From: a virus
Reading direction: 5' to 3' (one strand)
Length of the DNA: 35,519 bases
IMG/VR virus record: IMGVR_UViG_3300030099_003494
Coordinates: 1-35,519 of that record
Below the pieces are notes generated by a model that saw nothing but the letters and a program-made list of their open reading frames with translations, searched no databases and had not been told where the DNA came from. Each line of letters starts with the position of its first letter. Positions within the stretch are counted from its first letter, which is position 1. Below, piece by piece: positions 767 through 14,842 of the stretch. The position numbers were made by a program, and so were the translations under genes.

Positions 767-1050
767 TTTAGTCGCAGGGGGGCGAGTGTATCATACCAGA
801 ATCTACCCTACCCCCAACAGTCCTATGCATATCAATTCGTAATGAATGCTATCCAAAAAAAATTTCTCCTATGCATATGCGATAGGGGGCGAGAACCCCA
901 TAACACGCATATACGAATGGGGCTGTCAAGTCGTTCTCTTTAATGGGGCAAATTTGCAAAAAATTTTTTTGTCGGCAAAACTGTTGTTGAGATTTTTTTC
1001 TCAGCTATTTTATTTATTCATGCACACATGCACTAATGAAAGGAGTTGTT
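767..1050 (+). other. Non-coding repeat-rich upstream region of the zinc-ribbon gene
   Basis: No convincing gene lies here. The stretch contains GGGGGCGAG twice (778-786, 885-893), TCCTATGCATAT twice (821-832, 867-878), a short GGGG/CCCC hairpin (886-889 with 896-899), two AT-rich palindromes around 951-972, and a TGAGA/TCTCA hairpin near 990-1003. A weak promoter-like pair, TTGTTG then TATTTT 16 bases later, sits at about 985-1012. The ORFs reading through it cross the terminator or the palindromes and have no ribosome site. Confidence 0.45.
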
Positions 1051-1497
1051 ATGGGCAAGAAAAAATATATTACACATACACCTAATACAAAGAAAGCTTT
1101 GATTGGTGTTGATGAGAACAATGGTCGGCTTGTGTATGCCGATACAGGACTACCTGTTATCCGTACACAGACAGAGTTCATGACTGAAAGTCAAGACAAA
1201 GACCTGTACAAGCACGAGTGTATTGCTTGTGGAGTTCTAACCAACGCAGAGTTTCCTAGATGTTGGGATTGTGTGCAACAAGACAAAGAATTGGAGAACA
1301 AGATGAAACGACTAGCTCGGCTATCAAGAGAAGGTATTATCCCAGAAGATGATACCAACGGAGTTAGAGATGCTAGTTATCAATACAACGATAGCGTTAC
1401 TGTTGTTGTAGATAATTACAAAACTTGCAGTAATTGTTTCATAGTCTTACCGAAATCTTTCGGTCGTAAAAGACTATGTGAACATTGTAGGAAGTAA
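1051..1497 (+). CDS. Double zinc-ribbon protein, 148 aa
   Basis: Eight cysteines form two four-Cys sets. The first is C57-x2-C60 with C71-x2-C74; the second is C126-x2-C129 with C143-x2-C146, at the very C-terminus. This is the pattern of two zinc ribbons separated by a charged linker with a helical Lys/Arg/Glu stretch (about 78-93). Such proteins usually bind nucleic acid or polymerase; the exact role here is unknown. I place the start at the second ATG (1051) because AAAGGAG (1039-1045) overlaps the codons following the upstream ATG at 1036 and is ideally spaced from 1051. The 3' end contains a long hairpin (1441-1477) that adjoins the structured RNA region starting at 1503. Confidence 0.8.
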   Translation: MGKKKYITHTPNTKKALIGVDENNGRLVYADTGLPVIRTQTEFMTESQDKDLYKHECIACGVLTNAEFPRCWDCVQQDKELENKMKRLARLSREGIIPEDDTNGVRDASYQYNDSVTVVVDNYKTCSNCFIVLPKSFGRKRLCEHCRK

Positions 1498-1502
1498 TTA
1501 GC

Positions 1503-1943
1503 TAGAGTAGTCTAGGACATACCTTATCGTAGTTAGTTTGTAATAAATTCCTTTACTACGATACTTGGACTACTCTATGGTAATTATTACAGAGTAGGCG
1601 TATTCCTTTCACTAGGGTGCGAAGCTAAATATCGCTCCCAATATGCGTACTAATAGCCAAGCAACCATGTATGCCTACTCTGTAATAGTTACAAGACATG
1701 TTGCTATCGCTTTACTTGTATCCTTTCTTAATACGATATAAAGCAACGGCTATGGGATTGTGGTCGTGATTGACTAGCAACACCTTGTAACCGAATAGCT
1801 ATCTATGAGTAGGAAGTCTTTACTACTTGCCCTGTTTTGACTGACTGAAAGTAGATAGCTTGATATCTATACAGAACTAATGTTCTACCTTAAAAAATAA
1901 ATGTTATTTAGTCGTGTAGGTATCAAGCTATTTATGAGATAGC
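1503..1943 (+). ncRNA. Candidate large structured non-coding RNA
   Basis: This gap lacks an ORF with a ribosome site but holds consecutive long stems. A: 1503-1516 with 1564-1577 (14 pairs, two G.U), enclosing 1525-1533 with 1555-1563. B: 1580-1603 with 1669-1692 (24 unbroken pairs, three G.U), enclosing a hairpin at 1615-1647. C: 1688-1695 with 1784-1791 and 1700-1706 with 1775-1781, enclosing 1709-1714 with 1739-1744. D: 1797-1805 with 1852-1860. E: 1855-1867 with 1919-1931 (13 pairs, one G.U). All the G.U pairs noted in stems A, B and E work only in plus-strand RNA. Size and ornateness recall phage ncRNA classes such as ROOL or GOLLD, but I cannot assign it to either. A long leader controlling the following genes is the alternative. 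Confidence 0.65.
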
Positions 1944-1974
1944 AACGAGAACCATATTAAGAGAGAGGAAAATT

Positions 1975-2124
1975 ATGGTATGTGATATGTGTCATCAAGA
2001 CACTTATACAAAGTTATTGATAGAAGCTAATGTAAAATCCTCTGTTTATCACAGAGTATTGTGTCGTACTTGTGGATATCAAACAGTCAAAAGAATGAAT
2101 ACAAAGAAAGGTGGTGTACATTAA
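1975..2124 (+). CDS. Small zinc-ribbon protein, 49 aa
   Basis: The ORF encodes a 49-residue protein with C3-x2-C6 and C30-x2-C33, a compact four-Cys zinc-binding layout, and a basic C-terminal tail. The ATG at 1975 follows a purine-rich GAGAGAGGAAAA site and is the first gene after the structured RNA region. Its stop overlaps the next start (TAATG at 2122-2126), so the two are probably translationally coupled. It could be a nucleic-acid-binding or metal-holding accessory protein. Function is unknown. Confidence 0.65.
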   Translation: MVCDMCHQDTYTKLLIEANVKSSVYHRVLCRTCGYQTVKRMNTKKGGVH

Positions 2125-3506: not shown

Positions 3507-4027
3507 ACGATATAGAGAAGATTGAAGAATATTCTCAAAGACTAAAGAACTGTGCTATCACTGTTGACATATTGAGATACCTAAATGGTATCGCTATTGA
3601 TATGGACTTCAACAGAAGCATTGAGCCAGAGTTTCTTGATGAAACTATGAAAACAGAACGAGCTATGGAAACTGATATTGTTGCAGACAGTAGGTTTCCT
3701 GTTGTTGTTTTGATGGCTGTTCCACATTATTACAAGCGTGGTGAACTAACTGATGTTCACGTTCGTATGGTAATGGAAGTCATTGTGAAAAGTAAAATCG
3801 GTAGAGAACTAGACCAAGAGTATGCGACTATTCAAGTTGATGTACCTATGGAAGTGCTAGAACATCTACCAAACATTCCAGAAATTCGTTGGATTGATAC
3901 AAAAGTCAACCGACAGGATTGGATAAAAGTATGGGAAAATGTAGATAAAGACAAGCTCAATCAAGATTTTGTCAAAGAGATTGAAACTTTCCTAGAGATA
4001 CAAGATGAAAGGAGAGAAGAAGAATGA
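3503..4027 (+). CDS. Hypothetical protein, 174 aa, upstream of AAA+ ATPase
   Basis: I do not recognise this protein. It is acidic and soluble, with an N-terminal helix (IEKIEEYSQRLKN), a central beta-rich segment (about 65-115, VVVLMAVPHYY and VRMVMEVIVKSKIG) and a charged helical C-terminus ending in Glu residues. It overlaps the following AAA+ gene by four bases (ATGA at 4024), so the two are translationally coupled. Its position suggests it could be a partner or adaptor of the ATPase/VWA pair, but nothing in the sequence proves that. Confidence 0.65.
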   Translation: MNDIEKIEEYSQRLKNCAITVDILRYLNGIAIDMDFNRSIEPEFLDETMKTERAMETDIVADSRFPVVVLMAVPHYYKRGELTDVHVRMVMEVIVKSKIGRELDQEYATIQVDVPMEVLEHLPNIPEIRWIDTKVNRQDWIKVWENVDKDKLNQDFVKEIETFLEIQDERREEE

Positions 4028-4740
4028 CTGAAAAAGGTTGTTGGGAACAACTAGAAACAGTTATCGGTTACAGCGACAGAATACTTCTGTATGGTGTAGC
4101 AGGTACAGGTAAAACATATCAAGCCAATCGCTTTGGTTTGAAGAAAGGACAAGGTACATACAACATTACATTGACAGCAGACAGCACGGCTACTGAATTG
4201 ATGGGGCATTACATAGCTACTTCTGATGGTGGTTTTCGTTGGAAAGATGGTAATGGTACTCGTGCTTTCAAAGAAGGCTCACGCCTTGTTATCAATGAGA
4301 TAGACCATGCAGGAGCAGATGTGCAAACATTTCTCCATGCTTTGCTAGATGACAAAGAGTTTGCTGGTTTTAATCTACCAGATGATGAAGGTACTTTTGT
4401 AAGACCATTGCCTAGCTTTCAATGTATTGCAACAATGAACGGCTATCCAGATGACTTACCAGAGCCACTTGCAGATAGGTTTCCTATCAAGATTAACATT
4501 GATAAGATACACCCTTCTGCATTGGAAAGTCTTGGTAAAAGACTTAAAGCTATCTACCTTGATACTAATGGTAGAAACTTGTCTATTCGTAAATGGATTG
4601 AGTTGAAGAAACTAATGGATAGTGAAGCAGATGATGTTACAGCAATACAGATATTGTTTCCAGATGAAGATGAACAATATACTGTGCTTTCTGCTCTAAA
4701 TCTTCAAGATGAACAACTACCAAACGAAGAAGATGAGTAA
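4024..4740 (+). CDS. MoxR-like AAA+ ATPase (AAA_5 type), 238 aa
   Basis: The protein is a single AAA+ domain. Walker A is GVAGTGKT (24-31), the Walker B region is LVINEID (88-94), the sensor-1 region is IATMN (135-139) and the likely Arg finger is in LADRF (149-153). The motif order and the following VWA gene match MoxR/CobS-type remodelling ATPases, which act as rings on protein or metal-cofactor targets together with a VWA partner. The usual Walker B Asp-Glu reads Asn-Glu here. The domain is compact with no extra N-terminal region. The start overlaps the 174-aa gene and its end overlaps the VWA gene by eight bases, so expression of all three is coupled. The substrate is unknown. Confidence 0.88.
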   Translation: MTEKGCWEQLETVIGYSDRILLYGVAGTGKTYQANRFGLKKGQGTYNITLTADSTATELMGHYIATSDGGFRWKDGNGTRAFKEGSRLVINEIDHAGADVQTFLHALLDDKEFAGFNLPDDEGTFVRPLPSFQCIATMNGYPDDLPEPLADRFPIKINIDKIHPSALESLGKRLKAIYLDTNGRNLSIRKWIELKKLMDSEADDVTAIQILFPDEDEQYTVLSALNLQDEQLPNEEDE

Positions 4741-6493
4741 GCCAACAAGTCTTTTTCGTGCTAAAAGGAACAATCAAATTAAACTTGGATTGCCTTCTGT
4801 ACTACCAAATGTATCTTTGTTTGCTAACAAAGTTAGAAAATACAAAGTGGTGTACTCAAGCACTCCAGAAATAAAAGATGGTACTGACTTTCATAGTATC
4901 AATGTTCCCAAATGGATAGCACCAACGAGTGATGTTGATAGACAATACCTTGTTGAAACTGCTGTTCATAGAGAAAGACTGTTCGCCAATATGAACTTTC
5001 GCAGAAAGGATATGAGATTATTGTATTTCGCTCAAATGCTTTGGGCTATGCGTTGGACTAATTGGTCTAGTAAGAAAGTATTGGAAAAGCTAGGTGGTAG
5101 AAGAAGATTTGATGAACTGAAAGAGAAAGTTAATCAATGGAACATTGACAACGGATATGACAACAACGAAGAAGGTCTTAGAGAAATGCTTCGTAATGAA
5201 GACATATCTAAAAGTGAAGTTGCCTTTATGGAAAGGTGGCGTAGACACGCTTCATACTATGCAACAATAGGATTGAAGATGGACAAAAGTGATGTAGAGA
5301 TGAAAGTATATCGTCTTGTACAACAACTTTACCAACACAATGACAGTCGTAGATTTGTAAGAGATGTTGTGTATATGTTTGCTTTGCAAACAGATGTTAA
5401 ATACAACATAGATGAAGGTCAAATTCAAAAGATTGTTATGGCTAATGTTCCATTTGATGTACCTGTTGATGTACAAATGGAAGATGTGAGTTATGTAAGA
5501 ACTCTAATCCATTATGGGTTTGAAAGAGTAAGACAAGCTACATATCATGCTCAACGATTGTCAATACAGAAAAGTCAATGGCGATATGACAATGAAGAAC
5601 AGAATTGGAAAGTTAGACACTCTAGCTTGACAAAGTCTATGCTTAGGTATCGTATATCCAAGATATACAATGCTCTTGATGGACAAAACTATGGTGGCTC
5701 TTTGCGTGGTATGCCAAGTGAATTGCCTAGTAAATCTTATGTTGCTCCAAAGAGTATTCCAAAAGAAGATATGACACCAGAAGGCTTGACTTTACCTAAA
5801 GAACTAAGTGATGAGCTTAAGAGAGATATTATGGACAGAGCAGACCATAATCACAGGCGACACTTTGTTGACCATAGGACTAATGCAGGTGGTATTCATG
5901 GTGTTGGTAACATACACAAGTTCAAGCCTAATGCTAGAGTACATAAAGCCATTAGAGAACTAAGGAAAAGAAATCACGATAGTGGTGTTGTGCCTAAGAA
6001 TATGCACAGACTTACTACTGACCGAAAGGTATTTCAAAACAGAAAAACTGTTGCAGGTGGTAGTGTGATGATTGACTGTTCTGGAAGTATGGGCTTTAGT
6101 TCAAGAGATGTTGAAGAAGTTGTGGAGTTACTTCCAGCTAGTTGGATTGCAGGTTATACAGGTTATACACATAAGAGAGATGGATTTGATGGCGATATTC
6201 GTATCATTGCAGACAATGGTAGGATTGATACAGAAGCTATCAGCGAACTCTCTATGCACGGAAACAACTCTGTTGACTTTGAAGCTCTTAAACTTCTAGC
6301 AGAAAAACCAGAGCCAAGACTTTGGGTTAGCGACCAACAAGTTATTGGTGTTGATGTAGAAGGTTATGCTACTACATTAGCAACAGACAAACTCAAAGAG
6401 ATTGAAAGGTTTGTATTATTGAATAATATTATACCTATCAATGATATTGATATGGTAAAGAAGGTAGCTAAACAGCTATCAGTAAAGAAATAA
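4733..6493 (+). CDS. VWA-domain partner of the AAA+ ATPase, 586 aa
   Basis: A von Willebrand A domain occupies the C-terminal part. The metal-binding DxSxS motif is D448-C-S-G-S, in VMIDCSGSMG. Later conserved points are a Ser/Asp stretch (GNNSVDFEAL, about 505-515) and an Asp in WVSDQQ (about 535). The long N-terminal region (1-400) is charged, helical and basic, probably for substrate or ATPase binding. The architecture and the upstream MoxR gene resemble CobS/CobT-like chelatase pairs and MoxR/VWA chaperones. I start at 4733, where the ATG follows GAAGAAG; an ATG at 4709 would overlap the ATPase more. The gene ends 41 bases before a terminator. What the pair acts on in a phage is unknown. 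Confidence 0.82.
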   Translation: MSKPTSLFRAKRNNQIKLGLPSVLPNVSLFANKVRKYKVVYSSTPEIKDGTDFHSINVPKWIAPTSDVDRQYLVETAVHRERLFANMNFRRKDMRLLYFAQMLWAMRWTNWSSKKVLEKLGGRRRFDELKEKVNQWNIDNGYDNNEEGLREMLRNEDISKSEVAFMERWRRHASYYATIGLKMDKSDVEMKVYRLVQQLYQHNDSRRFVRDVVYMFALQTDVKYNIDEGQIQKIVMANVPFDVPVDVQMEDVSYVRTLIHYGFERVRQATYHAQRLSIQKSQWRYDNEEQNWKVRHSSLTKSMLRYRISKIYNALDGQNYGGSLRGMPSELPSKSYVAPKSIPKEDMTPEGLTLPKELSDELKRDIMDRADHNHRRHFVDHRTNAGGIHGVGNIHKFKPNARVHKAIRELRKRNHDSGVVPKNMHRLTTDRKVFQNRKTVAGGSVMIDCSGSMGFSSRDVEEVVELLPASWIAGYTGYTHKRDGFDGDIRIIADNGRIDTEAISELSMHGNNSVDFEALKLLAEKPEPRLWVSDQQVIGVDVEGYATTLATDKLKEIERFVLLNNIIPINDIDMVKKVAKQLSVKK

Positions 6494-12911: not shown

Positions 12912-13931
12912 CTATGCAAAACTCACTGTGTCAGTTCCTGCTGTAAAAATAATGTATTTCTCATCACCATCTGTTTGTTCACTACCATGTGTCAAACCAC
13001 TTCCTACAGTAATTGTAGCACCAGAGTAACGCAAAATTACTACTCCACTACCACCACTACCACCTGTTGGGCTTAGGTTATTTCCACCACCTTGTGAACC
13101 TCCACCGCCACCGCCACCTTTGTTAGCAGTACCTCCACCACCATTATTACCATGACCTCCACCGCCATTACCTGAGCCTGCACCTCCACCATCTTGTCCA
13201 GGATAATGACCTGAACCACCGCCTCTAGCACCACGACCACCACCACCGCCTCTTCCTACAGAAGAACCAGTAATACTTGAATCTAAACCATTTCCACCGA
13301 ATGCACCACCTGTTGTAGTTTTATCTGCTATTACATTATTACCTGCTGAATCTGTTGTTGGTCCTGAACCTGCTCCACCACCGCCACCTGCATTAGATGG
13401 GTTATCATTATTACCATTACCTGCTCCTCCAAAAAAACCTTGATTAGATGTACCATCTCCACCTTCTGTAGTTACAGAGTTGTTAGCATATCCACCACCA
13501 CCACCTGAACCACCAGTTCCACCATTACCACTTGTTTTACCTTGACCACCACCTGTTGAAGTTATTGTAGAAAATACGCTATCATTTCCTGCACCACCAT
13601 TACCTGTGCTACCATTGCCACCTGCACCTACTGTAACTGTGACACTAGCTCCACGAACTATCTCTAAAGGAGTTTCGGTTGAACCACCACCACCAGAATT
13701 TTCTGATGCGTATGAGTTTCTATAACCTCCTCCACCACCTCCACCACCAGTGTTACCACCTGCACCACCACCACCTGCTATAACTAGGTATGAAACAACA
13801 ACTGGTTGTAAAGCATACTTACTTTGATTTAATAAATCAGTAACATCATTTACTTCAAATATTCCTGAATTAGCTGTGCTACTTTGTGTAGGTCCATCTT
13901 GTATATATCCATATTCGTTTGATTTACTCAT
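12912..13931 (-). CDS. Glycine-rich tail fibre/adhesin-like protein, 339 aa
   Basis: A conserved N-terminal module (about 1-50: EYGYIQDGPTQSS, then GIFEVNDVTDLL) leads into YLVIAGGGGAGG and a very long Gly-rich region. It closes with SGVVILRYSG and a small C-terminal domain. Gly-rich regions of this kind form stacked polyglycine-II helices in known phage adhesins such as that of S16, where they present receptor-binding loops. I start at 13931, where the ATG overlaps the upstream stop (TAATG); an in-frame start at 13940 is less likely. It is a tandem paralogue of the upstream gene. Likely role: receptor binding at the fibre tip. Confidence 0.75.
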   Translation of the reverse strand: MSKSNEYGYIQDGPTQSSTANSGIFEVNDVTDLLNQSKYALQPVVVSYLVIAGGGGAGGNTGGGGGGGGYRNSYASENSGGGGSTETPLEIVRGASVTVTVGAGGNGSTGNGGAGNDSVFSTITSTGGGQGKTSGNGGTGGSGGGGGYANNSVTTEGGDGTSNQGFFGGAGNGNNDNPSNAGGGGGAGSGPTTDSAGNNVIADKTTTGGAFGGNGLDSSITGSSVGRGGGGGRGARGGGSGHYPGQDGGGAGSGNGGGGHGNNGGGGTANKGGGGGGGSQGGGNNLSPTGGSGGSGVVILRYSGATITVGSGLTHGSEQTDGDEKYIIFTAGTDTVSFA

Positions 13932-14842
13932 TATGACCAACTCACTGTGTCTGTACCTGCAGTAAATGTTGTAACTTTATCATCTCCATCTGTAGCTGTG
14001 GAACTTGTCAAACCACTACCGACTGTAATTGTAAAAGTATTTGGGTATCTTAATATAACAATTCCTGAACCACCTGTTCCTGCTGTTGATGCTGAACCAC
14101 TACCATCTCCGCCTGAACCACCATTTGCACTTCCACTTGATGCACCACCTTGTCCTGGACCTCCACCGATAGCTCTAGTAACTGCTGAACCTGTAATAGA
14201 AGATGACAAACCTGCAGCTCTAGTTTTTGTTCCTGTTTGAAAATGTACACTACCAACACCTACAGCACCTGCTCCTCCTCCACCTCCACCTGAATTTCCA
14301 TTATTATTGTTACCATTTCCACCATCATGTCCTTGTCCTGCTGTACCTTCACCTGGTGAACTTACAGTGTTATGAAAACCACCTGCACCTGAACCACCAT
14401 CTTCATCTCCATCTGAATTTGGTTTACAACCACCACCTCCTATAGAAGTAATTGTAGAAAAAACACTATTTGAACCTTTAACTCCTGATTGTAAAAAATT
14501 ATTACCTACACCACCTGTGCCACCGCCACCTACTGTAACTGTTACTGATGCTCCAGGAACTATATCTAAAGGAGTTTCTGTAGATGAATTACCACCTGAT
14601 GTTTCAGAAGCAAAAGAGTTACGATAACCTCCTGCTCCACCGCCACCACCACCTCTGTTTCCAGAAGATGAGGATGTAGAACCACCACCACCACCTGCGA
14701 TAACTAGGTATTGTATTGGTACAGTTTGTAATGGATATATATTTTGGTCTAAAGCATTAGCTACATCATTAACAGAAAATACACCACTAGATGATGAGCT
14801 TGATTGTGTAGGTCTTGCACCTATGTATCCGAATTTACCCAC
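13931..14842 (-). CDS. Glycine-rich tail fibre/adhesin-like protein, 303 aa, paralogue
   Basis: The same architecture as the next gene: N-terminal GYIGARPTQSS and GVFSVNDVANAL, then YLVIAGGGGG, a shared GGYRNSFASETSGG and STETPLDIVPGASVTVTVG segment, a long Gly/Ser-rich region with many Asn, and a C-terminus GIVILRYPN ... TAGTDTVSWS. The N- and C-terminal modules align closely with the downstream copy while the Gly-rich middle differs in length and loops, as expected after duplication and divergence. The start is a GTG with AAGGAG five bases upstream. Likely a receptor-binding or fibre protein. Confidence 0.75.
   Translation of the reverse strand: MGKFGYIGARPTQSSSSSSGVFSVNDVANALDQNIYPLQTVPIQYLVIAGGGGGSTSSSSGNRGGGGGGAGGYRNSFASETSGGNSSTETPLDIVPGASVTVTVGGGGTGGVGNNFLQSGVKGSNSVFSTITSIGGGGCKPNSDGDEDGGSGAGGFHNTVSSPGEGTAGQGHDGGNGNNNNGNSGGGGGGAGAVGVGSVHFQTGTKTRAAGLSSSITGSAVTRAIGGGPGQGGASSGSANGGSGGDGSGSASTAGTGGSGIVILRYPNTFTITVGSGLTSSTATDGDDKVTTFTAGTDTVSWS

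Follow-up and report, generated by a model that had tools for sequence, protein, structure and literature searches.

What occupies the long gene-free gap in the early region of an uncultured phage, and is it kept as RNA? The window studied here is the whole of a 35,519-base viral record (IMG/VR record IMGVR_UViG_3300030099_003494), which carries an SU10-like major capsid protein. A first-pass annotation, made from the sequence alone, had reported five consecutive long stems in a gap of 477 bases and had proposed a large, "ornate" structured RNA; it named ROOL and GOLLD as phage RNAs of similar size, without a match to either. Analysis of the window together with related contigs showed that the locus is selected as RNA on the early-gene sense strand and that it usually consists of one conserved domain within an array of long hairpins.

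Structure of the locus

The gap was bounded by the stop codon of the ORF at 1036-1497 and an ATG at 1975, and the same gap was present in contigs L002 to L004, L017, and L028. The features recognized in and beside it were as follows.

1036..1497, plus strand: upstream gene, a 153-aa cysteine-rich protein (family f7), zinc-ribbon-like by eye
1498..1974, plus strand: whole RNA locus, equal to the gene-free gap, on the early-operon sense strand (477 bases)
1503..1577, plus strand: hairpin A, with a 14-bp stem (1503-1516/1564-1577) and an inner helix (1525-1533/1555-1563)
1580..1692, plus strand: hairpin B, with a 24-bp stem (1580-1603/1669-1692)
1688..1791, plus strand: hairpin C, which has GUUAC (1688-1692) in common with the 3' arm of hairpin B
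1796..1866, plus strand: conserved core domain, identified by covariance-model match and covariation
1797-1806/1851-1860, 1808-1811, 1829-1836, and 1847-1850, plus strand: parts of the core, namely helix P1, AGUA, the loop GCCCUGUU, and GAAA, with helix P2 between AGUA and GAAA
1852..1934, plus strand: cassette hairpin UAGAUAGCUU...AAGCUAUUUA, whose 5' arm doubles as the 3' strand of core P1
1937..1943, plus strand: closing strand AGAUAGC, whose partner is 1798-1804 if the cassette takes the core 3' strand and otherwise the cassette 3' arm
1975..2124, plus strand: downstream gene, a small cysteine-rich (CxxC) protein of 49 aa

Folding of the plus-strand RNA of 1490-1960 gave -153.9 kcal/mol (z = -8.38), a value equalled by none of 100 shuffles; the minus strand of the same segment gave z = -4.48. 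Four further contigs carried the locus at 93-100% identity, with pairing preserved where the sequences differed. The stem of hairpin A showed compensation, reading GAGGG../..CCCUC in G001 but GAGUG../..CACUC in G013, and its inner helix was rewritten in L004 with retention of pairing. Covarying counterparts of hairpin B were found in G009, G013, and G036. The apical helix of hairpin C was rewritten in L002, L003, and L004 with pairing preserved (the window has CGCUUUA..UAAAG, L002 has UGUGUA..UACA, and L004 has CGUUUAU..AUAAA, every form running on into a paired base), and the base of stem C changed from U-A in the window to C-G in L003. The more remotely related contigs L016 and L017 (69% protein identity) had the same gap and the same flanking genes but a different sequence, and blastn detected no nucleotide match between them and the window; the L017 locus folded with z = -8.9.

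These results bear on several earlier claims. The gap and the stem coordinates held, including the stems of 14 and 24 unbroken pairs, lengths that count G.U as pairs. The five stems are present but do not form one fixed fold, several adjacent stems having strands in common, and the last two held only in part, being one of two pairings that lie 0.4 kcal/mol apart. Three outcomes had been named as refuting the proposal: a folding energy no better than that of shuffled sequence, homologues lacking the stems, and an absence of covariation. None was met; the energy was far better than shuffled (z = -8.4), the stems were kept, and covariation was present.

The conserved core

The core was first spotted by eye as the one hairpin common to the window and L017. 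It is laid out as P1, AGUA(R)GA, a variable P2, an apical loop CCCUGUU, and then Y-GAAA. The pattern GCCCTGTT-N3..15-CTGAAAGTAG, taken from the shared hairpin, was used to scan IMG/VR and matched 54 contigs, 3 of which were chance matches (L054, L073, and L077). The remaining matches also had AGTA(A/G)GA and complementary flanks, neither of which had been included in the scan pattern. Among 27 sequences, 93.8% of cells in the core were paired and both sides had changed in 11 of the 17 pairs; the covariation score was 0.416, whereas shuffles gave 0.179 and slid structures no more than 0.098. The covariance model R1 matched the window core with 73.3 bits (E 2e-15), and exactly one strong match (≥67 bits) was found in each of 50 whole records out of 50.

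Because this first set had been retrieved by sequence, an independent set was obtained via the terminase protein. At least 594 relatives were returned, and 80 loci were kept. They yielded ten more cores at the same place and on the same strand, some with unrelated P1 sequences, such as ACCUUAGU/GCUAAGGU in L166 and GAAGCCACAGU/ACUGUGGCUUU in L193. For 20 diverse cores, pairing in P1 and P2 was above that of every one of 2000 arm shuffles. The pattern scan and the terminase retrieval together placed the core in over 60 contigs from a single clade of uncultured phages. The core is neither indispensable nor universal, since the hairpin array was kept without it in L162 and L156, and it was strongly altered in L150 and L151 and unrecognized in L188.

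With a single exception among 40, two extra pairs beside the AGUA/GAA loop took A-U, G-U, G-C, and A-U/G-C forms. A bulged-G module requires a 5'-AGUA/5'-GAA loop between two helices, and both the sequence pattern and the flanking R-Y pairs agreed with this. The internal loop, which is accompanied by a 2-bp R-Y helix, may resemble a bulged-G or loop-E module; the likeness is one of sequence pattern only, and the non-canonical pairing is predicted. A search for complements of the CCCUGUU loop up to 1.5 kb from the core gave none that was conserved.

The hairpin array and selection on one strand

The long hairpins around the core have arms of the form 5'-TAGGTAGCTT(GTAGCACAT)...(ATGTGTGTTAC)AAGCTATCTA-3'. 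An array comprised 3-7 hairpins, with long stems of about 20-24 bp and whole hairpins of 63-254 nt. When cassettes were defined by 15 or more perfect closing pairs, 181 distinct hairpins fell into about 98 interior families. A scan with the arms only returned at least 120 stretches. At the locus, the arms were about 78-fold denser than in the remainder of these contigs; a dispersed repeat was considered and ruled out, the arms being locus-specific.

The strand under selection was examined with a stem scoring that penalizes G.U and A.C equally. Long stems less than 900 nt from the core in 49 contigs contained 323 G.U and 17 A.C, compared with 63 and 33 in long stems elsewhere. These counts ignore kinship, and related contigs are not independent. 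The ratio of 323:17 is strong evidence that the sense RNA, rather than the DNA, is under selection. The earlier argument for a transcribed, selected RNA, drawn from a few G.U pairs in the window, thus held and extends to the stems near cores in general.

A second small motif, a hairpin with the loop UAGG-N4..6-GGAAACG and covarying stems, was observed within or adjoining cassette interiors. Sixteen distinct instances, all next to arms, were seen across 3.5 Mb of fetched sequence (in L043, L044, L057, L059, L223, L233, and others), and it is noted here as a second candidate RNA motif.

Exchange of modules between phages

Variable hairpins are swapped between related phages at the common arms. 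Contigs G038, G015, G011, and G048 shared a near-identical core, 91-99% identity over the 400 nt upstream, and 83-100% identity in the downstream gene, but from the TAGGTAGCTT of the core to the next AGCTATCTATTTGTTTAAACAAG they had unrelated hairpins (17-42% identity). In these four contigs, replacement of the hairpin adjoining the core fell exactly between the arms. One interior was found at +512 (G024), -252 (G023), and +60 (G050) relative to the core, and a duplication in the array was seen in L016. By analogy, wholesale replacement of modules with intact flanks may be the pattern expected under antagonistic selection. Fast change of the interiors would also be compatible with weak constraint on sequence while structure is kept.

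Competing pairings

Positions 1852-1860 can pair with 1797-1805 or with 1926-1934. As the strands of core P1 double as arms of the flanking cassettes, alternative pairings compete and each strand can pair two ways. The minimum free energy fold preferred the neighbours over P1 in 36 of 49 contigs; the cost of pairing P1 had a median of 5.5 kcal/mol and was 0.4 kcal/mol in the window. The outer ten arm positions, which must suit both partners, were nearly invariant, whereas the inner ten, used in pairing within the cassette only, covaried freely. In G030, both strands of core P1 and the cassette 3' arm were altered together (AGATGTCTA, TAGACATCT, and AGATGTTTA). Such joint changes may reflect selection for exchangeable pairing or homogenization by recombination; the data fit either and do not separate them.

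Genomic setting and distribution

The RNA lay on the early-gene strand in all contigs, mostly 4-6 kb from the terminase gene and divergent from it. Neighbouring genes varied by subclade. The f7 gene adjoined the RNA in one subclade only, and the 49-aa CxxC protein did so in several, but not all, lineages. Among the gene families within 5 kb in 49 contigs there was no universal partner; no family occurred in more than 21 of the 49, indicating that the RNA outlives its gene neighbours. A strong intrinsic terminator was present 100-800 nt 3' of the array in seven contigs of one subclade, and most of 16 long contigs had no intrinsic terminator downstream of the core in the early region.

No near relative of the window was found among isolated phages by DNA similarity, and terminase and capsid matches in isolated phages were only distant relatives (about 24-30% identity). 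The core was not found in isolated phages, and its exact pattern was absent from 85k prokaryote genomes searched as a prophage check. Terminase relatives occurred in a few marine MAG contigs, assigned to Actinomycetota RS345, Gammaproteobacteria MED855, and Rhodobacteraceae NAT686, and two of the terminase-relative MAG contigs (L213 and L215) had the core. With MAG contigs assigned to differing taxa, the host remains unsettled.

Several other features of the window were noted. A strong intrinsic terminator at 729-760 separates the first early gene from the gene preceding the RNA, a position conserved within the subclade. A second structured element (110-261) precedes the first early gene; its long stem reads GCUAACUUACAGG/..GUAAGUUAGC in the window and, with compensation, CUAACAUUAC../..GUAAUGUUAG in L003, and its inner hairpin (about 135-170) is missing from L003. 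The noncoding block ATAACACGCATATACGAATGGGG.TGTCAAGTCG (about 890-945 in the window, 5605-5645 in L017) is conserved in otherwise diverged relatives and could be a promoter or operator. An AAA ATPase followed by a 594-aa protein (4024-6493) resembles the CobS/CobT-like pair of other phages; several contigs with the RNA lack these two genes. The adjacent genes at 12912-13940 and 13931-14842, the second with a glycine-rich domain, are about 66% identical in nucleotide sequence along 560 bases and probably represent a duplication of tail or adhesin genes. The genome is circularly permuted, and about 4 kb of it is absent from the window: L003 starts with the last 30 bases of the window, and base 1 of the window corresponds to about position 3995 of L003.

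Comparison with known RNA families and systems

The window and nine related loci gave no match at the gathering threshold to any Rfam 15 family, including ROOL, GOLLD, and pRNA; a permissive scan of 1-2150 gave weak sub-threshold matches only. No tRNA or tmRNA gene was detected in the window by ARAGORN. Like the present locus, ROOL and GOLLD are large noncoding RNAs of phages and prophages with conserved structure and no known function. They often lie near tRNA islands (PMC12286853), whereas the window has no tRNA, and they adopt one conserved multi-junction fold, whereas separate hairpins here follow one another linearly, with shared arms and swapped modules. The RNA belongs to neither of the two families, and "ornate" is a poorer description than a linear array of modular, shared-arm hairpins. 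The broader claim of a structured, selected RNA of the transcribed strand is supported by covariation, the G.U bias, persistence at one genomic position across a diverse clade, and the lack of an Rfam match, transcription itself being inferred.

Other systems show partial likeness. The put RNA of HK022 also consists of sense RNA stem-loops in an early phage operon, but it is about 70 nt long with two stem-loops near the promoter (PMC9378689), whereas 3-7 hairpins with exchangeable modules stand here behind one or more genes. The put RNA acts by binding RNA polymerase, thereby suppressing termination. TIGR arrays, some of them made of stem-loops, likewise combine constant and variable parts in an RNA array carried by phages; here no Nop/Tas protein was detected, short spacers were lacking, and the interiors were folded and of variable length. 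The TIGR criterion of 8-12 nt repeats alternating with 8-12 nt spacers was not met by hairpins of 63-254 nt. In 12 records, PF01798 and PF02371 gave no hit for Tas proteins while the controls were positive, although these models might miss a divergent Tas. Type III toxin-antitoxin RNAs and the pseudo-ToxI escape arrays of phages (PMC3475682) offer a functional analogy only, as phage RNA repeats able to act as decoys. ToxI repeats are short identical pseudoknots; the present hairpins are unlike one another, span 63-254 nt and about 98 interior families, and are accompanied by one core per record. Integron cassettes with attC sites are also exchanged at conserved folded ends. An attC site is a folded DNA site that works as single-stranded DNA together with a tyrosine recombinase. 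They differ in that selection here is on the sense RNA, as judged by the G.U bias, and in that the arms at both ends of a hairpin pair together with no genes inside.

Alternative explanations

Four alternatives were weighed, and all were less well supported than the reading given below. The first is a cis element of the early transcript, acting by modification of RNA polymerase in put-like antitermination or in RNase III cleavage or stability of the polycistronic early mRNA. In phage T7, intercistronic hairpins set RNase III cleavage and stability of early mRNA. In its support, the RNA is in sense with the surrounding early genes in every contig, the conserved core is single, the stems have the length described, and a terminator lies downstream in one subclade. 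Against it, most of 16 long contigs lack an intrinsic terminator downstream of the core in the early region, a terminator and two genes come before the RNA in the window, and a cis role alone leaves the wholesale exchange of interiors unexplained. This alternative is considered unlikely.

Less likely still is that the hairpins are selfish or recombinogenic DNA (cruciforms, single-strand recombination sites, or attC- or MITE-like elements) with RNA incidental. The exact replacement of hairpins between constant arms, duplications of the kind found in L016, and the occurrence of one cassette at differing positions would fit. DNA hairpins, however, would accept G.U and A.C equally, which disagrees with 323:17 on one strand; the orientation is constant, and the arms are limited to one locus rather than dispersed.

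A role as a structural RNA in the virion or in packaging, similar to phi29 pRNA, is very improbable. In its favor, the core is conserved, present in single copy, and fixed in place 4-6 kb from the terminase across the clade, but the locus is divergent in orientation and lies apart from the structural and terminase genes, two relatives lose the core yet keep the terminase, the CCCUGUU loop is not self-complementary, and Rfam gave no pRNA match. A guide-RNA array of the TIGR or CRISPR type, with the variable interiors as guides, can be nearly dismissed: constant repeats do alternate with variable segments in phages and stem-loop TIGR arrays exist (PMC12045711), but the interiors are folded and differ widely in length, with whole hairpins measuring 63-254 nt, spacers of 8-12 nt with boxes C and D were not seen, no Nop-domain (PF01798) or PF02371 protein was present in 12 records, and no neighbour gene is universal.

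Proposed role and significance

In the explanation preferred here, the locus encodes an early noncoding RNA that joins a constant domain to RNA modules open to exchange, and these modules perhaps serve as decoys in host takeover or anti-defence. Taken whole, this reading is tentative, with a probability of roughly 0.4. Its parts differ in strength: the RNA and cassette architecture is very likely, while a decoy or effector function of the modules, for which there are no expression data and no identified target of the interiors, is no more than possible.

Under the preferred reading, all steps of which are inferred, the RNA would be transcribed along with the early genes, and the shared arms would provide both a footing for recombination and interchangeable pairing partners. 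The long stems may shield the modules or may allow a host double-strand RNase of the RNase III type to separate them. The constant CCCUGUU loop and the AGUA/GAA module would bind one conserved phage or host partner. The fast-changing interiors would act against host factors, either as RNA effectors or as decoys. A bolder version, also only possible, is a phage "RNA cassette" system in which effectors are acquired by swapping hairpins, not genes, on universal arms, and in which the core and its neighbours might exchange pairing partners via the shared arms.

No description of such an organization was found in the open-access literature searched; subscription papers and bioRxiv were outside its scope. 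What is new is the organization, swappable RNA hairpins with common arms, and not a demonstrated function. A widespread RNA family is thereby added to a group of phages that only metagenomes have revealed, with more than 594 contigs that carry related terminases. Should the modules be anti-host RNAs, the locus would represent a natural library of RNA effectors, and if the shared strands switch, it would be a natural RNA strand-exchange device.
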